NCBI RefSeq assembly: GCF_021431925.1
Contig: NZ_CP090371.1
Span: 434,001 to 498,000 of the forward strand
Length of the DNA: 64,000 nucleotides
Source: Halobaculum sp. CBA1158
GTDB lineage: Archaea; Halobacteriota; Halobacteria; Halobacteriales; Haloferacaceae
Direction: 5' to 3'
A program made the translations under genes and the position numbers. This document shows positions 51,879-63,943 of this stretch, piece by piece. The number at the start of each line of letters is the position of its first letter. The first letter of the stretch is position 1. The notes below the pieces were generated by a model that was given only the letters and a program-made list of their open reading frames with translations, had not been told where the DNA came from and ran no database searches.

Positions 51879-53231
51879 ATGGCACGAGATACCACCACAC
51901 TCAGCCGACGTGACGTGCTAAAGACGTCCGGGGCCGCGGGGGCCGCCGGACTTACCGGCCTGGCCGGATGTGCAGGAATCGGCGGCGGCGGCGGCGACTC
52001 AGAGTACCCCGCGCTCGGGAACTACCCGGTCGAGGGCGACGAGGTCGTGTTCGGACTGAACGTCCCGCAGTCGGGATCGTACTCCCAGGAGGGGGAGGAC
52101 GAACTGCGCGGCTACGACCTCGCGGTCGACCACCTGAACAACGGCGGCGGCTGGGTCGACAACTGGGACGGACTCTCGGGCGAGGGCGTGCTCGACAAGA
52201 CGGTCACCACCGTCGAGGGTGACACCGCGACGGACCCCGACACGGCCCGACAGTCCGCCTCACGGATGATCAGCCGCGACAACGCGATCATGGTCACCGG
52301 GGGCTCGTCCTCCGGCGTCGCCATCGCGGTGCAGGGGCTGTGTCAGGAAGAGAACGTCATCTTCCAGTGTTGTATCACCCACTCCAACGACACCACCGGA
52401 AGCGAGTGCGTCCGCTACTCCTTCCGTGAGATGTTCAACGCGTACATGACTGGGCAGGCGCTCGCGCCCGTCCTCGCCGAGGAGTACGGGGAGGACCTGA
52501 ACTTCTACCAGCTGTACGCCGACTACTCGTGGGGACAGACGCAGCAGGCCTCGATGGAGCAGTTCTTCACCGATGTCGGCGGTTGGAACCAGATCGAGTC
52601 GGTGCCGACGCCGCTGGGTACCTCCGACTACTCGTCGTACCTCTCGGACGTGCCCCGCGACGAGACGGACGTGCTCGTCCTCAACCACTACGGGCTGGAC
52701 GCGGCGAACTCCCTCCCGCAGGCGATCGAGGCCGGGCTCGACGAGGACATGGAGATCGTCGTCCCGCTGTACAACCGGCTGATGGCCGAGGCGGCCAGCG
52801 GCTCCATCGGCGGCATCTTCGGGACGGCCGACTGGAACTGGCAGCTCGAGGACGACGCCACACAGTCGTTCGTCGAGGTGTACCGCGAGGAGTACGACCG
52901 CGCACCCAGCTACGGCGCGCGGATCGCGTACACGCAGACGCTCCAGTACGCCGCCGCCGTCGAGCGGGCGGAGACGTTCTACCCGCCGGAGGTCATCCGG
53001 GAGATGGAGGGCGTCGAGTACGACGGTGCGGGCCTCGGCGCGGAGACGATGCGCGCCTGCGACCACCAGGCCCAGCGTGACGTGCTCGTCATGCAGGGCG
53101 CGACCCCGGAGGAACAGACGGAGGACAAGCTGCTCAACATCGTCTCGCAGACCTCGCGAGACGACATGGGGTACGCGTGCGACGCGGGCCCGGCGGCCGA
53201 GTGTGAGCTGGGCGAGTACGGCGACGAGTAA
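51879..53231 (+). CDS. Branched-chain amino acid/urea-type ABC substrate-binding lipoprotein
   Basis: 450 residues. A Tat signal with RRDVLK (residues 10-15) and a lipobox LAGC (about 28-31) mark an exported lipid-anchored protein. The mature part is a LivJ-type periplasmic-binding fold (VVFGLNVPQSGSYSQEGEDELRGYDLAVDHLN...). Ligand could be branched-chain amino acids, amides or urea; the CQEENVIFQCC segment is unusual in having adjacent cysteines. It heads the operon 51879-57829, with a 127 bp gap before the first permease. Confidence 0.92.
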   Translation: MARDTTTLSRRDVLKTSGAAGAAGLTGLAGCAGIGGGGGDSEYPALGNYPVEGDEVVFGLNVPQSGSYSQEGEDELRGYDLAVDHLNNGGGWVDNWDGLSGEGVLDKTVTTVEGDTATDPDTARQSASRMISRDNAIMVTGGSSSGVAIAVQGLCQEENVIFQCCITHSNDTTGSECVRYSFREMFNAYMTGQALAPVLAEEYGEDLNFYQLYADYSWGQTQQASMEQFFTDVGGWNQIESVPTPLGTSDYSSYLSDVPRDETDVLVLNHYGLDAANSLPQAIEAGLDEDMEIVVPLYNRLMAEAASGSIGGIFGTADWNWQLEDDATQSFVEVYREEYDRAPSYGARIAYTQTLQYAAAVERAETFYPPEVIREMEGVEYDGAGLGAETMRACDHQAQRDVLVMQGATPEEQTEDKLLNIVSQTSRDDMGYACDAGPAAECELGEYGDE

Positions 53232-53358
53232 CTGACGCCGTCACCGTCCTCGTCGTCCCGTACCGGCACGTTCTTATTCGATCGCCTGAACCGCGTCAAC
53301 GAATGCCAACACCGACAACTACTACCAAGCGGACCACACCGCACCTACACGAACGATA

Positions 53359-54315
53359 ATGTTGCTCCTACAGTCCGAGATCGCATCGATACTCCTCAAC
53401 GGCCTCCAGCAGGGCGCGATCTACGCGCTGCTCGGGATCGGCCTCACGATCATCCTCGGGACGATGGAGTTCCTGAACCTCGCGCACGGCGCGCTCTATC
53501 TCGTCGGCGCGTACACGGGCCTCATCGTCTTCCAGGAGACCACCCTCTCGAACGGGTTCTTGTACAGCCAAGGGATCACGACGATCGGCTTCGGGGGTGG
53601 GTTCATCGCGGCGCTGATACTCGTTCCGCTCGTCGGGTTCGTCGTCGGCCTCCTCATGGAGCGGTACGTCGCCGAACCGTTCTACGACCGACCCGAGACG
53701 GACCAACTCCTCGTGACGTTCGGACTCGCGCTGATCGTCCAGGAGATCGTCAGGAACGTCATCGGCGGGAACACGTTCCAGTCGATCGCGCCTTCGACGA
53801 TGTTCGGCGTCAACGTCTCTCAGCCGATCAGCCTCCCGCTCGTCGGCCTGTTCCCGTCCTGGCGGCTGTTTATCATCGCCATCGCGTTCGTCGTCATCGG
53901 CCTGACGTACCTCGCGATCGAGCGGACCGACTTCGGGCTCGTGGTCCAGGCGGGGACGCGTGACTCCGAGATGGTCCGGCTGCTGGGCATCAAGATCAAC
54001 CGCTCGTACAGCCTCGTGTTCGCGCTCGGGGCGGCGCTGGCGGCGTTCGCCGGACTCATCGGGGCGTCGATCCAGACGATCAGTCCCCAGATAGGGACCG
54101 AACGGGCGCTGCTGCCGGCGTTCCTCACCATCGTCGTCGGCGGGGCCGGCTCCGTTCGCGGGGCCATCGCCGGCGGACTGGTGCTCGGCGTGATCATCTC
54201 GGCGATGACGCAGACGTACAGCCAATGGGCGCAGATCGTCCTCTACCTGTTCGTCGCGCTCATGCTCATCGTCAAGCCGGAGGGCCTGTTCGGAAGCATG
54301 GAGGTGGGCGAATGA
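53359..54315 (+). CDS. livH: ABC permease LivH type
   Basis: 318 residues, eight to nine membrane helices. The start LLQSEIASILLNGLQQGAIYALLGIGLTIILGTMEFLNLAHGALYLVGAY is diagnostic for LivH, as is the EAA-like loop near TDFGLVVQAGTRDSEMVRLLGIKINR. It pairs with LivM to form the transmembrane channel. ATG 53359 follows a separate short leader; stop overlaps livM by 4 bp. Confidence 0.94.
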   Translation: MLLLQSEIASILLNGLQQGAIYALLGIGLTIILGTMEFLNLAHGALYLVGAYTGLIVFQETTLSNGFLYSQGITTIGFGGGFIAALILVPLVGFVVGLLMERYVAEPFYDRPETDQLLVTFGLALIVQEIVRNVIGGNTFQSIAPSTMFGVNVSQPISLPLVGLFPSWRLFIIAIAFVVIGLTYLAIERTDFGLVVQAGTRDSEMVRLLGIKINRSYSLVFALGAALAAFAGLIGASIQTISPQIGTERALLPAFLTIVVGGAGSVRGAIAGGLVLGVIISAMTQTYSQWAQIVLYLFVALMLIVKPEGLFGSMEVGE

Positions 54316-55502
54316 GTCGCGAAGACCGGGTCGCAGGCGACGAACCCGTCACCGACGGGGGGACGGTCGCCGACGAGAGCACAGGCACCGGTTCGGGCGG
54401 CTCGGCGCTCGCGCGCCTTCGCGACCGAGAGGACTTCGTCGTCATCGCCTCGGCGGCCGCGCTGGTCGTGTTCCCGTTCTTGCTCATCGACGTGCTCGGC
54501 GCGATCGGGGACGTCATCGGCACCAGCATCGGCGGCTACGCGGGGCTGCCCTCGCTGGTGCTCATCTACGGCATCATCGTCATCGGGTTCAATCTCCTGC
54601 TCGGCTACACAGGGCTGTTGTCGTTCGGTCACGCCGCGTTCTTCGGATCGGCGGCGTACTCGGCGGCGCTGTTCAGTCAGGTCGTTCCCAGCCCGATCCT
54701 GATGATCGTGGCCGGGACGGTCGTCGCGACGCTGCTCGCGTGGCCGATCGGCTTCGTGTCGATCCGCCGCTCGGGCGTGTACTTCGCCGTGTTGACGCTC
54801 ACGTTCGGGCAGGCGCTGTACTTCTGGGCGCTCGGTCCCGGATCGTGGCTCACCAACGGGGACAACGGCTTCTCCGGTATCGAGGCGCACGGGCTGTTCG
54901 TCGGCGCGCTCCCGCTGGACGCCCAGTTGATCCCGGTGTTCGATTCCTACACCGTGATGTACGCGTTCGCCTCGATCGTGATGCTCATCGCTATCTGGGT
55001 CGGCAACCGAATCATCAACTCGCCGTACGGTCTCATCTTCGAGGCGCTGGGCGAGAACGAGGAGCGCGTGGAGTTCGTCGGCCTGAACGTCTTCCGGTAC
55101 AAGCTGATGGCGTTCGTCATCTCGGCCGTCTTCGCCGGCGTGGGCGGCGCGATGTTCACCATCCACGAGCAGTACATCCACCCGACGACGGCGCTGTACT
55201 GGATCCAGTCCGGCGACTTCGTCATCATGACGGTCCTCGGCGGCACCGGGAGCCTCGTGGGACCGGTGTTCGGCGCGCTCGTCTTCGAGTACGTCGCGAA
55301 CGTCGTCTCCGGCGTGAGTCTCCCCGTCATCGGCTCGATCGGGTCGCTCTGGCGGTTCGTGCTCGGCGCGGTGTTCGTATTCATCGTGTGGGTGTTCCCG
55401 CGCGGCATCTACGGCGCGTTCGCCGACCTCGGCGCGCGGATCACCGGCGGCGGCGGCGACGGCGAGGAGCCGGCCGCGGCCGACGGAGGTGAGGCCGAAT
55501 GA
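54312..55502 (+). CDS. livM: ABC permease LivM type
   Basis: 396 residues. A 60-residue hydrophilic N-terminal extension rich in Asp/Gly/Thr precedes about nine membrane helices, with YGIIVIGFNLLLGYTGLLSFGHAAFFG and FRYKLMAFVISAVFAGVGGAMF typical of LivM. The C-terminus is an acidic Gly tail. ATGA overlaps on both sides couple it to livH and livG. Confidence 0.94.
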   Translation: MSREDRVAGDEPVTDGGTVADESTGTGSGGSALARLRDREDFVVIASAAALVVFPFLLIDVLGAIGDVIGTSIGGYAGLPSLVLIYGIIVIGFNLLLGYTGLLSFGHAAFFGSAAYSAALFSQVVPSPILMIVAGTVVATLLAWPIGFVSIRRSGVYFAVLTLTFGQALYFWALGPGSWLTNGDNGFSGIEAHGLFVGALPLDAQLIPVFDSYTVMYAFASIVMLIAIWVGNRIINSPYGLIFEALGENEERVEFVGLNVFRYKLMAFVISAVFAGVGGAMFTIHEQYIHPTTALYWIQSGDFVIMTVLGGTGSLVGPVFGALVFEYVANVVSGVSLPVIGSIGSLWRFVLGAVFVFIVWVFPRGIYGAFADLGARITGGGGDGEEPAAADGGEAE

Positions 55503-56257
55503 CCCTCCTGCAGACCGACGGGCTCACGAAGCAGTTCGGCGGCCTCGTCGCCGTCGACGACGTGAGCTTCGAGGTCGAATCGGGCGAGACGCGCGCGGTC
55601 ATCGGGCCCAACGGGGCCGGCAAGTCGACGCTCATCAACTGCATCACGGGCGCGCTCGAACCCACCGCCGGCAGGGTGGAGTTCGACGGCGAGGACATCA
55701 CGGACCTCGAGCCCCACGAGACGGTGCAGGCCGGCGTCTCCAAGTCGTTCCAGACGGCGTCGATCTTCCCGAGCATGACCGTTCGCGAGAACGTCGAGAT
55801 CGCGGCGGTCGCGGCCGCACACGGCTCCTTCAGCGTCGACTTCCTCAAGCGGCTCGCCGGGTTCGACGAGGTGCACGACATCACCGATCGGATGCTCGAT
55901 TCGGTCGATCTCCTCGGCGACGCCGAGATGGAGGCGGCGAGTCTCCCGTACGGTGACAAGCGCCGCCTGGAGATCGCGATCGCGCTCGCTTCCGAGCCCG
56001 ATCTGCTGCTCATGGACGAACCGACCGCCGGCATGTCGCCGGACGAGACCGCGGCCACCGTGGACCTCGTGGAACAGCTCCAGGAGGACCTCGGACTCAC
56101 CATCCTCATCGTTGAACACGACATGGAGATCATCTTCCAGATAGCCGACCGCATCCTCGTGCTGAACCGCGGACAGGTCATCGCGGACGGCACTCCCGAA
56201 CAGGTACAGGAAAGCGAGGAGGTTCAAGAGGCGTACCTCGGCGGGGTGGAGCTGTGA
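55499..56257 (+). CDS. livG: ABC ATPase LivG type
   Basis: 252 residues. Walker A GPNGAGKST (about 37-45), LivG insertion with ASIFPSMTVRENVEIAA, signature YGDKRRLEIAIALASEPDLLLMDEPTAGMSP and the switch His in IVEHDM are present. The signature reads LPYGDKRRLE, as is common in LivG proteins. It overlaps livM and livF by 4 bp each. Confidence 0.95.
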   Translation: MTLLQTDGLTKQFGGLVAVDDVSFEVESGETRAVIGPNGAGKSTLINCITGALEPTAGRVEFDGEDITDLEPHETVQAGVSKSFQTASIFPSMTVRENVEIAAVAAAHGSFSVDFLKRLAGFDEVHDITDRMLDSVDLLGDAEMEAASLPYGDKRRLEIAIALASEPDLLLMDEPTAGMSPDETAATVDLVEQLQEDLGLTILIVEHDMEIIFQIADRILVLNRGQVIADGTPEQVQESEEVQEAYLGGVEL

Positions 56258-57108
56258 GCTCCGATCCCGCGGAGACGACCGACGCCGAGGCAGAGGCGAA
56301 CGAGACCGCCCGGGAGGTCGCCACGGCCCACGCCGCGGACGCGACAGCGGCCGCCGCCGAGGGCGACCACCTCCTGTCGGTCGAGGACGTCGACGCCTAC
56401 TACGGGGAGAGCCACATCCTGCGCGACCTCTCGATGCACGTCGAGGAGGGCGAGGTGTGTGCCCTGCTCGGCCGCAACGGCGCGGGCAAGACGACGACGC
56501 TGCGCTCGATCGCCGGTGCCCGTCCGCCCGAGGTACGCGACGGGGCCGTCCGGTTCAAGGACCAGGAGATCACCGGGCAGTCGACGGAGGACGTCTCCTC
56601 GCTCGGCATCTCGCTGGTCCCCGAGGAGCGGCGGGTGTTCCCCAACCTCTCGGTCGAGGAGAACCTCCACCTCTCGGACGTGGCGCGCAACTGGTCGAAC
56701 GTGATCGGCCGCGAGGTGTCGATGGAGCACCCCGGCATGTCCACCGAGGAGGTGTACGAGGTGTTCCCACGGCTGGAGGAGCGTGCCACGCAGAAGGCCG
56801 GGACGCTCTCGGGCGGCGAACAGCAGATGCTCGCCATCGCTCGCTCGCTCAAGCAGGACACCGACCTGCTGATGCTCGATGAGCCGTACGAGGGGCTGGC
56901 CCCGCAGATCATCGAGACGGTCGCGGATGCGATCGAACAGATCGCCGACGCGGGGACGACGATCCTGCTGGTCGAGCAGAACGCCGTGGCCGCGATGGAC
57001 ATCGCCGACCGGGCGTACGTCATCGACCAGGGCGCTGTGGTGTTCGCCGGCGACTCCGAGGAACTTCGCGCCGACGAACAGACCCGCGAGCGGTACCTGG
57101 GTGTCTGA
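56254..57108 (+). CDS. livF: ABC ATPase LivF type
   Basis: 284 residues from GTG 56254. A 45-residue Glu/Ala/Asp N-terminal extension precedes the ATPase: GRNGAGKTTTLRS, LVPEERRVFPNLSVEENL, LSGGEQQMLAIARSL and MLDEPYEGLAPQ. These are characteristic of LivF. The extension is absent from most homologs. The following thioredoxin-like gene starts 2 nt after its stop. Confidence 0.94.
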   Translation: MSSDPAETTDAEAEANETAREVATAHAADATAAAAEGDHLLSVEDVDAYYGESHILRDLSMHVEEGEVCALLGRNGAGKTTTLRSIAGARPPEVRDGAVRFKDQEITGQSTEDVSSLGISLVPEERRVFPNLSVEENLHLSDVARNWSNVIGREVSMEHPGMSTEEVYEVFPRLEERATQKAGTLSGGEQQMLAIARSLKQDTDLLMLDEPYEGLAPQIIETVADAIEQIADAGTTILLVEQNAVAAMDIADRAYVIDQGAVVFAGDSEELRADEQTRERYLGV

Positions 57109-58038: not shown

Positions 58039-58887
58039 TCACCGGTGTCCGTCGGTTCCGTCGGTTCCACCACCGTCGTCGCCGTCGCGGTTACGGTACG
58101 TCTCGTAGCGCTCGGCGGCGAGGACGCTCCCGGCCGCTAGCACGGTGCCGAACACCACGTCGGTCGCCCAGTGGATCCCGAGGTACATCGTGGAGACGGC
58201 GATCGACGCCCCGAGTCCGACGGCGATCGGCGTCCACCGGGGGTAGCGCCGTCGGGTACGAACGGCGAGCATCGCGACGGTCGCCGCCAGCGACGTGTGC
58301 AGCGACGGGAAGACGTTCGTGTTCTCGTTCACCTGGCTCGTGAGCAGTTGCGACCGGGGCCAGCTCTCGAACAGGAGCGAGCCGACGAGGTCGGGCATGA
58401 AGTTCCGCGGGCCGTACGCGACGATCAGCACGTAACAGACAACGCCGACCCCGTAGTTGATCCCGTAGGCGACGATCAGGGTACGGAGGGCGCGCGTGTC
58501 CTCACACAGCGCGTACGCCACCACGGGGAAGGTGAGGAGGTAGACGTAGCCGAACACGTACACGAACGAGAAGTACGCGGTCGCGGCGGGGGTGGCGAAC
58601 GACTGGATCCACGCGACGAACGTCCCCTCGATCGCGTAGATCGCGGTCGTGGCGTTCACGCCGATCACCCACGACAGCTCGACGCCGACGCGACGGACGA
58701 CGCCGTTGACCGCCAGCACCGCGACGAGCGCAGCGAGCGGTCGCGAGACCCGTCGCGACATTCGGGAGAGCGCCGGCCCGACCGTCCGGGGGTCGAGAAA
58801 CGATCGCCCGAGCACGACGGCGATCGACGCGACGTGCATGAGGGCGACGACGGCCGCGACCTCCCCGACGAGTTCGAGCAGGCTCAT
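58039..58887 (-). CDS. PAP2-family membrane phosphatase
   Basis: 282 residues with about six membrane helices. The PAP2 phosphatase motifs are NVFPSLHTSLAA (about 207) and GIHWATDVVFG (about 246), which supply the catalytic histidines. Family members remove phosphate from lipid or polyprenyl phosphates; the inositol-phosphorylceramide-synthase-like subgroup is possible. The start overlaps the stop of the upstream binding-protein gene by 4 bp. Confidence 0.88.
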   Translation of the reverse strand: MSLLELVGEVAAVVALMHVASIAVVLGRSFLDPRTVGPALSRMSRRVSRPLAALVAVLAVNGVVRRVGVELSWVIGVNATTAIYAIEGTFVAWIQSFATPAATAYFSFVYVFGYVYLLTFPVVAYALCEDTRALRTLIVAYGINYGVGVVCYVLIVAYGPRNFMPDLVGSLLFESWPRSQLLTSQVNENTNVFPSLHTSLAATVAMLAVRTRRRYPRWTPIAVGLGASIAVSTMYLGIHWATDVVFGTVLAAGSVLAAERYETYRNRDGDDGGGTDGTDGHR

Positions 58888-60788
58888 CGGATCTCCCGTC
58901 GAACGAGCCGGCCGTCGTCGTAGCTGTACCCGGCCGCCCGGAAGGCCTCTCGCGCGCCGGGCACGTCGAGTTCCCCCTCGCTCCCGATGAACGGCGTCAC
59001 GGGGTCCTCGCCGTCCCATCTGAGGTCCTCCGGGATCCACTCGGTGTCCGAAAGCGGCGTCACCGACGGCGTGGCGTACCCGTCGAACACCTCGTCCACG
59101 AGCGCCGTCCGGTCGATCAGCCGCGCGAGCGTGTTGCGGAACTGCGGGTTCGTCAGCGGCGGCGACGACGCGTTGTACCCGAGCAGGTACGGCACGGTCC
59201 TGCCGTCGACGACGAGGTCGGTGTCGTCGGTTCGCCCGATCCGTCGGATCGTGTCCGCCCCCACGGAGGTCAGCGTCACGTCGGCGTCGCCGTCGGTGAC
59301 GACGCCGACCGCGCTCACGTCCGAGCCGACCACGCGCACCTCCAGGCGCTCGAACGGCGGTCCGTCGGCGTTCGCTCCGGGGACATCCGACCCTTCGGTC
59401 CCGAGGAAGTGATCCGGGTTCGACTCCAGTATCAGCGACTCGCGTCGCGTGTTCTCGACGAACCGCATCGGGCCGCTGCCCACCGGCGGGACGTTGTCGG
59501 TGACGAGCGCCTCCGTCGCCGGACCGAACTCGATGCCGGCGACCGAGACGGGCGCGGTCCTGTCGACCCAGACGTGTTCGGGCAACACCGGGACCGTGAA
59601 CGCGCGGACGGCGACGGCCGGGTCGCACTCGACGAACGTCACCTCGAGGACGCGGTCGTCGACCGCGGTAACGTCTTCGACGAGGCTGCTCCGGCCCTGG
59701 AACCGCGGTGCAGGCAGCGGGCCGTCGTCCCTCGGCGTCGTCGACGTTCCTCCGCCCTCGTCGCGGTCGTCGGGCGCGCTCGCCTCCCCGCCCAGCGAGG
59801 TGTCCGCGAGCAGGCGATAGGTGAACGCCGCGTCCTCGGCGGTGACCGGCTCGCCGTCGTGCCAGGTCACCCCCTCGCGCAGTCGGACCCGCGCGGCCGG
59901 CCGGCCGGCCGTCTCCGAGAGCGACCACGACTCGGCGAGCCACGGCCGAACCTCCCCGCCGTCGTCGAGACGGCCGAGGGTGTCGTACAACAGCCCGGTC
60001 AACACGCCGGTCCGACGGAACTCGACGGCGAGCGGATTGAGGTTCGTCGTCGCCCGACGGTCGGTCGTGACCGCTCGCAACGTCACGCTGCCGTCGTCGC
60101 TCTCGGGCGTCGCCGTCGCCTCCGCCTCCTCGGCTCGCCCTCCGGCCCCGCCGGGCGTTCCGACTCGGTCGAGCCCGAGGTACCCGGTGGACGACGCGAG
60201 GTCGGCCGTCCGCCAGCCGGTGAAGCGGTCCGTCCGGGCCGCCCGGACGTCGTCCGGAAACGCCAGCACCGTGAACGGCTGGGACCGCGCGATCGAGCGC
60301 TGGAGGTCGGCGACGGCCTCCCGGCGCTGTTCCCCGCTCGTGCGTCGCTGCGTCTCGAGCAGTTCGTTCACGTCGAGGTCGGCGTAGCCGAACGGGTTCT
60401 GCCACCCCGGCGTCTCGACGTACCGCGAGTGCAACAGCGCGTACAGGGAGTCCGGCGAGCGGAACCGACCCGACGCGCGCGCGAGGAACACGTCGAAATC
60501 GCGGTTGAGAAGCACCTGTCGGTACAGTTCCTGCTCGGAGACGGGCCTCACCCGGGCGTCGATGCCGGCGGCCGTGAGCCAATTGACGATCTGGCGGGCC
60601 GCACGGAGGGCGTAGGGGTCGGCGTCGGCGGGAACGGTCTTGATCTCGAGTCGGACCTGTGACTGCGATTCCCACCCGGAGAGCGCCCGGAGGCGACCAA
60701 CGCATCCCGCGGTGGCGACGCTCGCGCCGCTGGCGAGCGCGGCGAGCGCGCGGCGGCGTGGGATCGAGTCATCCGACGATCGACGCAT
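58884..60788 (-). CDS. Family 5 substrate-binding protein in circularly permuted order
   Basis: 634 residues from ATG 60788. RRRALAALAS (11-20) and TAGC (lipobox Cys29) mark an exported lipoprotein, probably Tat. Residues about 45-195 match the normally C-terminal part of SBP family 5 (PYALRAARQIVNWLTAAGI, DFDVFLARASGR, then a NELLETQRR...AVADLQR run). After a linker (about 205-235), residues 236-634 match the normally N-terminal part (LNPLAVEFR, YDTLGRLD, PWLAESWSL, GVTWHDGEPVTAEDAAFTYR) and end at FRAAGYSYDDGRLVR. No permease or ATPase gene is adjacent. Minus-strand GAGATATTGG lies about 29 nt upstream. Confidence 0.9.
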   Translation of the reverse strand: MRRSSDDSIPRRRALAALASGASVATAGCVGRLRALSGWESQSQVRLEIKTVPADADPYALRAARQIVNWLTAAGIDARVRPVSEQELYRQVLLNRDFDVFLARASGRFRSPDSLYALLHSRYVETPGWQNPFGYADLDVNELLETQRRTSGEQRREAVADLQRSIARSQPFTVLAFPDDVRAARTDRFTGWRTADLASSTGYLGLDRVGTPGGAGGRAEEAEATATPESDDGSVTLRAVTTDRRATTNLNPLAVEFRRTGVLTGLLYDTLGRLDDGGEVRPWLAESWSLSETAGRPAARVRLREGVTWHDGEPVTAEDAAFTYRLLADTSLGGEASAPDDRDEGGGTSTTPRDDGPLPAPRFQGRSSLVEDVTAVDDRVLEVTFVECDPAVAVRAFTVPVLPEHVWVDRTAPVSVAGIEFGPATEALVTDNVPPVGSGPMRFVENTRRESLILESNPDHFLGTEGSDVPGANADGPPFERLEVRVVGSDVSAVGVVTDGDADVTLTSVGADTIRRIGRTDDTDLVVDGRTVPYLLGYNASSPPLTNPQFRNTLARLIDRTALVDEVFDGYATPSVTPLSDTEWIPEDLRWDGEDPVTPFIGSEGELDVPGAREAFRAAGYSYDDGRLVRREIR

Positions 60789-60935: not shown

Positions 60936-62330
60936 ATGTTCCCGAAGCGGCTCTCGGCCAGGGCCACCCTCGCGCTGTTGGTCGTCCTCGCGGCCGGGAC
61001 GCTGGTCGTCGGCTACGTCCAGGCCGAGCGCGCCGGCGAGGACGTGACCGGCGACCCGGCCGTCGAGCAGGCGCTTCGCACCGGCGACGACTCGGCCGTC
61101 GTCGGCACTCGAGACGAGATCACGGTCGTCGCGACCGACTCGAACGCCTTCGTCGCCGACGAGAACGACGGTCCCCGCGCGCAGGCGGAGTTGGTCGCGT
61201 TCGCGCCCGACGGGAGCGTCTACTATCACCAGAACGAACACACCCGATACTGGGACGTCGACCCGGTGGCGGGGACCGACGCCACCGTCGAGTTCGTCTA
61301 CGCCGACCACCTCGACGCGGACGAGTGCGGGGGGAGCGTCTGCACGCGCAACGGCGTCGAGCGCGTGAACCTCACCACCGGCGAGTCGACCGACGTGTTC
61401 AGCCGGATCACGCCCGGAAAACACTCCACCCGCTGGCACGACGTCGACCGGATCGACGACGAGCGCCTGCTCGTGGCCGACATCTACCGCGACCGCGCGT
61501 TCGTCGTGAACACGACGACCGGGCTGACCGAGTGGGAGTGGGACGCCCAGACCGACTTCGATCCGACCGACAGCGGCGGACCGTTCCCCGAGGACTGGAC
61601 CCACATCAACGACGTGGAGTACGTCGAGATCGACGGACGGGAGACGGTCATGGTGAGCGTCCGCAACCACGACCAGGTCGTCTTCGTCGACATGGAGCGG
61701 GGTCTCCGGGAAGACTGGACGCTCGGGAGCGACGGCGACCACGACACCCTCTACGAGCAGCACAACCCCGACTACATCCCGCCCGAGCGAGGCGGTCCCG
61801 CCCTCCTCGTGGCCGACTCCGAGAACGGCCGGGTGATCGAGTACCAGCGCGAGGACGGCGACTGGGAGCGGTCGTGGACCTGGGAGGACGACCGCGTCCA
61901 ATGGCCCCGCGACGCCGACCGCCTCCCGAACGGCCACACGCTGATCACCGACTCCAACGGCGACCGCGTCGTCGAGGTCGACACCGACGGGGAGGTCGTC
62001 TGGTCGGCCGACGTCGGCTTCCCGTACGAGTCAGAGCGCCTCGGCACGGGCGACGAGAGCGCCGGCGGCGAGTCGGCCGCCTCGCTCGGGCTGGAGTCGC
62101 GGACGTTCGACCCCGACCGCGAGGGCTCCGCGCTCGACCGCGTCGTCGCGCTCGCGCCGCCGACGGTCGTCAACGGCGTCGCGTACGTCCTCCCCCGGTG
62201 GGTGGGCGCGCTCGAGGCGGTCGCGGTCGTCGTGCTCGTCGGGTCGCTCGCCGGCCTGGCGCGGGTGCAGTACCGTCGGCTGGACGGCTCCGTGTCGCTC
62301 CGGTGGCCGGTGGTGTTCGAGCGAAAATGA
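60936..62330 (+). CDS. Arylsulfotransferase (ASST)-like protein
   Basis: 464 residues. An N-terminal membrane helix (about 10-27) and a C-terminal helix (about 410-435) flank a beta-propeller of repeated SVYYHQNEHTRYWDVDPV, HSTRWHDVDRIDDERLLVADI, TWEDDRVQWPRDADRLPNGHTLITDSNGDRVVEVD type blades. The His-containing DWTHINDVEYVE matches the ASST substrate pocket region. Whether it transfers sulfate or only shares the fold is not known. It overlaps the next gene by 4 bp. Confidence 0.82.
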   Translation: MFPKRLSARATLALLVVLAAGTLVVGYVQAERAGEDVTGDPAVEQALRTGDDSAVVGTRDEITVVATDSNAFVADENDGPRAQAELVAFAPDGSVYYHQNEHTRYWDVDPVAGTDATVEFVYADHLDADECGGSVCTRNGVERVNLTTGESTDVFSRITPGKHSTRWHDVDRIDDERLLVADIYRDRAFVVNTTTGLTEWEWDAQTDFDPTDSGGPFPEDWTHINDVEYVEIDGRETVMVSVRNHDQVVFVDMERGLREDWTLGSDGDHDTLYEQHNPDYIPPERGGPALLVADSENGRVIEYQREDGDWERSWTWEDDRVQWPRDADRLPNGHTLITDSNGDRVVEVDTDGEVVWSADVGFPYESERLGTGDESAGGESAASLGLESRTFDPDREGSALDRVVALAPPTVVNGVAYVLPRWVGALEAVAVVVLVGSLAGLARVQYRRLDGSVSLRWPVVFERK

Positions 62331-63943
62331 CGGGACGCGTGCGCGAGGCGATCCCGGTCGAGGAGGCCGACGGGCCGTGGCTCGCGCTCGGGGTCGCAGC
62401 CGCCTGCGTCGCCGTCGGCGTCTACCTCGCGACGAACGCCTACCCGGCGTACGGGGCCGGGCTGTACGCCCAGATCGCCGCCGAGATCGCGGCCAACGGC
62501 TACCGCCCGCCGGCGACGATCCCCGGATACACCGCCGAGGGCGTTCCCTTCGCGTACCCGCCGTTGCAGTTCTACGTGTTCGCCGTCCTCCTCGACGCCG
62601 GCGCGGACCCCGTCGCCGTCGCGCGGCTGCTCCCGAGCGTCGCCGTCGTCGCGGTCGCGGTGCCGGCGTACCTCTTGGGCCGGGATGTCGTCGGGTCGCG
62701 TCCGGCGGGCGCGGCGGCCGCGGCGCTGCTCGCGGTGAACCCGCAGGTGCTGGAGTGGCACGTCTCCGCCGGCGGCGTCGTCCGGGCGTTCGCGTTCCTG
62801 TACGCGATGTGTTCGGTGTACGCGGGCTACCGGGCGTACACGACGAGCTCGCGACGCGCGGTCGTCGCCTCGGCGGTCGCGTTCGGGCTGACGGCGCTGT
62901 CGCACCCGACGTACGCGCTGTTCGTCGTCGTGAGCCACGTCGTCGCGTGGGCGACGCTCGACCGCTCACCGTCGGGATTCCTCCGGGGGCTGGCGGTCGG
63001 CCTCGCCGGGACGGCGATCGCCGCGCCGTGGCTCGCGTGGGCCGCCGCGACGCACGGTCCGGGGGTGTTCGCGGCCGCCGCCGGCACCCACGGGGGCGTC
63101 GGCGGAGGCGGCGCGGCCGCGCTGGCCGGCGAGATCTCGCCGTTCACGCTCGTCCCGCTGGCCGCGGCGGCGTACCTCCTCGCCCGCGGCGACCGGTTCC
63201 TGCCCGCGTGGGTCGTCGCCGCCGAACTCGTGTTCGCCCAGCCGCGGTTCGCGTACACCGTCGGCACGCTCGCGGTCGTCGCCGTCGCCGTCGACCTCGG
63301 CGACCGGGTCGACGACCGCTCGCTGGCGTCGGTTGCGGGGTCGCTCCCGCGGTCGCTCGCGACGGCGACACCGACCCGAGCGGAGTCGATGGGATCGTCG
63401 CGCTCGCGGTCGTCACCGTCGGTTCGCGCGGCGCTGGCGGCGGCGCTCGTCGTCTGCGCGACGGTCGGCGGGGCCGCCGCGCTCGGCTACGAGATGACGC
63501 TCGAGGGCGACCCCTCCTCGCCGGCGTTCGTCGACGGCGACGACCGCGAGGCGATGGCGTGGATCGCCAGCGAGACGCCGCCCGAGGCGACGTTCGTCGC
63601 CGTCGGCGACGCCGCCGAGTGGCTCCCCGCGCTGACCGACCGGACGCTGTTGGTCGGGCCGTGGGGCGTCGAGTGGCGCAGCCCCGACGACTACGAGCGC
63701 CACTTCGACGCCTACGAGGCGCTCTCGACGTGTCACAGCGCCGCCTGCGTCGAGGCGGCCGCGGCCACGGTCGACGCCTCCCCGACCCACGTGTACCTCC
63801 CGAAGCGCCGGTACACCGTCCGCGGCGAGTCGACCGTCACCTTCGGGACGCTCGCCCGGTCGTTCGAGCGCGCCGACGGCTGGACGCGCGCCTACGAGAA
63901 CGACGGCGTCGTCGTCTATCGAGTCGCCGACGACGAGGAGTGA
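62327..63943 (+). CDS. GT-C-like polytopic membrane protein
   Basis: 538 residues. About nine to ten membrane helices (GPWLALGVAAACVAVGVYL, ..., VRAALAAALVVCATVGGAAAL) with an early extracytoplasmic loop (NAYPAYGAGLYAQIAAEIAANGYRPP) resemble the GT39/STT3-type glycosyltransferases that use dolichyl-phosphate sugars. The C-terminal ~150 residues form a soluble domain after the last helix. Coupling to the ASST-like gene (ATGA overlap) suggests a joint role in modifying a surface glycan. Catalytic residues are not assigned. Confidence 0.8.
   Translation: MTGRVREAIPVEEADGPWLALGVAAACVAVGVYLATNAYPAYGAGLYAQIAAEIAANGYRPPATIPGYTAEGVPFAYPPLQFYVFAVLLDAGADPVAVARLLPSVAVVAVAVPAYLLGRDVVGSRPAGAAAAALLAVNPQVLEWHVSAGGVVRAFAFLYAMCSVYAGYRAYTTSSRRAVVASAVAFGLTALSHPTYALFVVVSHVVAWATLDRSPSGFLRGLAVGLAGTAIAAPWLAWAAATHGPGVFAAAAGTHGGVGGGGAAALAGEISPFTLVPLAAAAYLLARGDRFLPAWVVAAELVFAQPRFAYTVGTLAVVAVAVDLGDRVDDRSLASVAGSLPRSLATATPTRAESMGSSRSRSSPSVRAALAAALVVCATVGGAAALGYEMTLEGDPSSPAFVDGDDREAMAWIASETPPEATFVAVGDAAEWLPALTDRTLLVGPWGVEWRSPDDYERHFDAYEALSTCHSAACVEAAAATVDASPTHVYLPKRRYTVRGESTVTFGTLARSFERADGWTRAYENDGVVVYRVADDEE

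Follow-up and report, generated by a model that had tools for sequence, protein, structure and literature searches.

Natural circular permutation of an ABC binding protein has been described in Treponema pallidum, where the 'Cluster Bc' glucose-binding protein TpMglB-2 (Tp0684) is permuted and membrane-tethered and still binds its ligand (PMC4990184). Homologues occur in treponemes and Gram-positive bacteria, and the authors put forward tethering as a possible reason for the permutation (PMC4990184). In our search of open-licence papers TpMglB-2 was the sole described permuted ABC binding protein found, and no earlier report of a permuted family 5 binding protein turned up. The haloarchaeal substrate-binding protein (SBP) described here resembles TpMglB-2 in being a naturally permuted ABC-type binding protein tethered to the membrane but differs from it in fold and breakpoint: TpMglB-2 has the cluster B sugar-binding fold with N-lobe strands moved to the C-terminus, whereas the listed structural and sequence matches of our protein are to family 5 (cluster C). 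With the family 5/cluster C proteins DppA, OppA, AppA and NikA it shares the same fold segments, significant profile matches in both halves and lipoprotein character, and most of its permuted relatives likewise have dppBCDF partners. It departs from them in its permuted chain order, in a predicted anchor on lobe II and, for its own branch, in the lack of an adjacent transporter. The partner gene encodes a member of the PAP2_3 superfamily (PF14378) with its catalytic motifs kept that forms a conserved pair with a family 5 binding protein, a dedicated partner of a kind that no other PAP2 enzyme is known to us to have.

Chain order and predicted fold

The SBP gene lies near the end of the window (the whole 64,000-nucleotide stretch of Halobaculum sp. 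CBA1158 DNA analyzed; Table 1). Its open reading frame of 634 aa runs on the minus strand from an ATG at 60788 to a stop at 58884-58886, and is real, with 77 full-length protein records of the same order (some redundant; identity mostly 35-67%). The N-terminus is a twin-arginine signal with a lipobox, RRRALAALASGASVATAGC, and both arginines and the lipobox Cys29 are invariant in 40 of 40 aligned members, which places the protein among the Tat lipoproteins. Haloarchaeal Tat lipoproteins have been described (PMC2945643).

Table 1. Features of the SBP/PAP2 locus, in window coordinates.
Feature	Position	Strand	Evidence
Permuted family 5 substrate-binding lipoprotein gene, 634 aa	58884..60788	-	SBP_bac_5 E 3.6e-47, two pieces in swapped order
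Tat signal peptide and lipobox (residues 1-28; Cys29 predicted to be lipidated)	60702..60788	-	IPRRRALAALASGASVATAGC
Relocated segment, residues 43-206, C-terminal in canonical proteins (end of lobe II and back into lobe I)	60171..60662	-	Profile match to DppA 354-487
Linker, residues 207-233, old C-terminus to old N-terminus	60090..60170	-	Low pLDDT at 215-221
Residues 234-634, from the usual N-terminal start to the lobe II AGY helix and new C-terminus	58887..60089	-	Profile match to AppA 26-347; SBP_bac_5 profile 1-285
PAP2_3 membrane phosphatase/phosphotransferase gene	58039..58887	-	PF14378 E 2.5e-16; 4-nt overlap (ATGA) with SBP gene
Arylsulfotransferase (ASST)-like protein, divergent neighbor	60936..62330	+	PF05935 E 2.6e-10
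PMT-like multi-pass membrane protein	62327..63943	+	PMT_2 E 3.6e-5, weak, under curated cut-off

In a Pfam search, positions 1-299 of the SBP_bac_5 profile matched the C-terminal part of the protein and positions 277-360 the N-terminal part, upstream of it. The score of 161.7 bits (curated cut-off 32.4) makes the protein a family member, but the canonical order, N-lobe part and then C-terminal part, was not found; because the order is swapped, we assign it to a permuted subclass of SBP_bac_5 rather than to the ordinary members. A phmmer comparison with AppA (1xoc) aligned residues 71-187 with chain positions 384-497, 263-335 with 48-118, and 433-589 with 180-323. Two profiles built from the N-terminal and C-terminal segments of permuted proteins were each run against all PDB chains. 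The first (about residues 43-206 here) matched DppA 354-487 (E 1.8e-19) and also AppA 366-498, and the second (residues 234-634 here) matched AppA 26-347 (E 3.2e-63) and also DppA 32-339. Together they cover the canonical chain but for ~15 residues between them, which sets the break near DppA 340-354. Domain II of DppA spans about residues 261-478, so the break falls in lobe II and the lipid anchor should sit on the other lobe than in canonical proteins.

A preliminary description of this DNA had read the order as inverted relative to family 5, with residues about 45-195 as the usual C-terminal segment, residues 236-634 as the usual N-terminal start, and the anchor moved to the other lobe. The swapped Pfam pieces, the segment profiles and the lobe II breakpoint bear out each of these readings. 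A linker is present as well, at 27 residues (207-233) rather than the 30 given; across the 40 aligned members it spans 2-65 residues (median 10), lengths consistent with old termini lying near each other.

AlphaFold2 modeling of the whole protein without ligand, from 40 sequences, gave a single compact fold (pLDDT 82, pTM 0.81) in which pLDDT dropped below 50 only in the signal, the linker and loop 331-363. With the profiles covering DppA 32-339 and 354-487, all segments of the two-lobed fold are thus present in one compact protein. Modeled by itself, the N-terminal segment, which is confident in the whole protein, reached a pLDDT of 75 and a pTM of 0.57, was weak from about segment residue 60 onward, and lacked strands 172-178 and 180-185 of the whole-protein model, a comparison that is indicative since the two alignments differ slightly. 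Being much weaker alone, the segment is better seen as completing the rest of the fold than as a tandem domain. The two full tandem folds that the preliminary description had named as the contrary outcome were not seen, and where it had required the N-terminal 150 residues to complete the lobe, the N-terminal 165 do complete the fold. Foldseek matched family 5 proteins in the PDB over 420 columns only (best 1xoc, TMq 0.43), a partial match because the aligner is sequential. Sequence, profiles against solved structures and structure prediction together support the protein as a circular permutant.

Distribution and origin of the permuted order

The window SBP family was found in its own genome and in 29 of 60 related genomes, and is conserved across many haloarchaeal genera. 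One copy, in Halolamina pelagica CDK2 (L074:6001-7781), is split into three frames, through either pseudogenization or sequencing error; the copy in Halolamina pelagica CGMCC 1.10329, unlike that in CDK2, is open. A second permuted family (L082 type) was present in 36 of 195 Halobacteria genomes at ≥50% identity, and a third group with the permuted order comprises L149-L167. Nearly all genes of the L082 type and of L149-L167 are flanked by dppB, dppC and ATPase genes where the flanks are readable; L157 and L202 are the exceptions among the permuted relatives. At one locus in Halorussus salinisoli (L093:7456-9574), the permuted SBP is separated from its permeases by genes for a class III CoA-transferase and an HpcH/HpaI lyase, which hints that an organic acid may be what this branch handles.

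Among 103 SBP_bac_5 genes in 24 Halobacteria genomes, 66 were canonical, at least 34 permuted and 3 left unassigned; the 34 calls rest on two Pfam pieces in 20 cases, full-length matches in 13 and a separate check in one. Elsewhere in the same phylum we found one permuted gene, its order verified, in one genome (G376). This gene (L201:6230-7996, minus strand) stands beside dppBCDF, and its product has no evident lipobox but a C-terminal PGF-CTERM archaeosortase signal, which would put the anchor on lobe II too. Full-length permuted forms also occurred, as single genes, in 9 of 349 Bacillota genomes (one of them Oceanobacillus halotolerans) and 2 of 247 Actinomycetota genomes. None was found in 299 Pseudomonadota genomes, in each of which the best few candidates were scored, a strong hint, if not proof, of true absence. 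In other archaea and bacteria, matches covered the N-lobe part only, as for canonical proteins. Occurrence in haloarchaea and Gram-positive phyla, with none seen in Pseudomonadota, fits the tethering idea.

The order therefore runs through a sizeable share of haloarchaeal family 5 genes, as the archaeal search suggested in the preliminary description brought out, and the earlier view of it as unlike all known family 5 proteins gives way to a picture of one large clade and probable repeat events, spread across haloarchaea, a single archaeon outside them and some Gram-positive bacteria. In trees built on alignments with the halves restored to canonical order, one main clade held most permuted proteins (93/77 in the first tree; UFboot/SH-aLRT 96/92, or 95/86 with bacterial members added), and the branch of the window SBP had support of 100/100. 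Five permuted proteins (L201, L206, L207, L217 and L218) were placed among canonical ones. An AU test rejected all permuted rows as one clade (p 0.0006), and holding these five together gave p 0.03; an earlier test that forced one outlier row into the permuted clade had given p 0.08. A single permutation event is thus rejected, though some long branches and the earlier p value of 0.08 call for caution. Chains of the main clade end just past the AKxLLxEAGY helix-hairpin; in the others the C-terminus falls at this hairpin or a little ahead of it, furthest ahead in L206. Because the AU test rejects one clade, repeated permutation at almost one and the same site is probable, a conclusion made less certain by the long branches. 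Slightly different break points were seen in L207:5995-8583 (minus strand), L206:4633-6303 (plus strand), L217 and L218, all permuted and grouped with canonical proteins; these four are probable independent permutations.

PAP2 linkage and the lack of an adjacent transporter

A PAP2_3 gene directly follows the SBP gene on the same strand in 39 of 47 cases among the named loci, often with an overlap of 1-4 nt. In Haloferax gibbonsii the pair is carried on plasmids. Seven of the eight remaining genes are second copies in SBP-PAP2-SBP arrays, and the eighth is L046. Such arrays, with two tandem permuted SBPs, PAP2 between them and in some cases a second PAP2, were seen in Natrinema and Natronococcus (L056, L057, L059-L063, L066 and L090); the second paralogues could act differently from the copies that PAP2 follows. 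Of 61 genomes, 30 carry the SBP, and the PAP2 subfamily was present in 29 of these and in none of the rest (Fisher p 1.4e-16, which overstates independence because the genomes are related; the count leaves out a lone PAP2 match of E 1.8e-13 in G051). Both genes are kept in G056 and G059, where they lie far from each other. The PAP2 active-site motifs are kept (PSxH in 40 of 40, GxHxxxD in 39 of 40). Gene linkage of this kind shows a shared process, not direct contact. Recurrent neighbors of the pair are the ASST-like protein (13 compared loci), the PMT-like membrane protein (18 loci) and an unassigned membrane protein. Just upstream of the pair, the window also carries an apparently complete ABC cassette of branched-chain amino acid type (51879-57108, plus strand), with an SBP, two permeases and two ATPases.

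The preliminary description had remarked that the gene lacks adjacent permeases and is coupled to PAP2, and the ATGA overlap and the lack of any nearby family 5 permease agree with it. No DppB or DppC homologue was found in any of the 40 loci of the window SBP branch, which thus lacks the cognate permease and ATPase genes that mark an ABC importer and that most other permuted branches have. This weighs against a scattered importer, in which family 5 permeases from other loci would receive the ligand of the SBP. A binding protein can work with permeases encoded far away, most other permuted relatives adjoin dpp permeases, and one of the six OppC_N-bearing permeases in the organism's own genome (C1:795282) has no SBP5 gene nearby. 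That SBP-less permease, however, is present in four genomes without the window SBP family (G001, G003, G008 and G028) and missing from G010, which has the family, and PAP2 tracks the SBP far better. We therefore rejected the SBP-less cluster (G000:C1:787000-804000) as the partner, and a scattered transporter, which the preliminary description had suggested, now appears unlikely. The cluster itself (L148:6722-11802) has no SBP gene; it consists of dpp-type permease and ATPase genes, among which the DppB-like gene runs divergently to those for DppC and the ATPases.

An orphan SBP with a conserved membrane partner would also suit a solute sensor, that is, an anchored receptor signaling the presence of ligand through that partner. 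In the compared loci, however, no recurrent histidine kinase, chemoreceptor or regulator stands beside the SBP, and PAP2 proteins are enzymes, here with their active-site motifs kept, so that we consider this reading improbable. Two ordinary tandem domains, a gene fusion or a misassembly mimicking permutation, to which the presence of Pfam profile end 277-299 in both pieces, as a past duplication would leave, might point, can be dismissed from the AlphaFold2 fold, the segment profiles, the lone-segment folding and the homologues, given an N-terminal part of ~165 aa that matches the C-terminal third of the fold only and is not confidently folded alone, and the same order in dozens of genomes.

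Proposed role and wider meaning

We favor, at a probability of roughly three in four, a natural cluster C permutant that is anchored by lobe II, has lost its transporter and is tied to PAP2_3, with capture of a ligand at the surface for PAP2 as its most likely function. The linker would fuse the old termini, both in lobe I, and the new ends of the chain would lie in lobe II, after the AGY helix-hairpin and before the strand that follows it. Lobe II would then be the part that the Tat signal and lipid anchor hold at the membrane, and the permuted flytrap presumably still binds ligand. In its other branches, the permuted clade consists of binding proteins that belong to complete dpp-type ABC importers, and since these relatives sit in dpp operons, the permuted fold evidently can serve transport. 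The window branch would have lost the transporter and become genetically tied to the PAP2_3 membrane enzyme, for which the SBP may capture ligand at the cell surface, either to offer it a substrate or head group or to regulate its activity. In the DppA structure, Asp408 binds the peptide amino group. Aligned to DppA, the permuted profile does not have Asp at this position, and the ligand is therefore probably not an ordinary peptide.

The permuted proteins carry the plain annotation "ABC transporter substrate-binding protein," yet about a third of a major haloarchaeal binding-protein family has the swapped order, of which a sequential structure search shows only a part. In the PAP2-linked orphan branch, the binding protein seems to have departed from transport. 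More tentatively, and with considerable doubt, family 5 SBPs may have been permuted more than once near one lobe II site in organisms that tether them to the membrane, and one haloarchaeal branch may have left the ABC transporter and now serve a PAP2 membrane phosphotransferase as its dedicated binding subunit, which would make the pair an undescribed two-part surface system.
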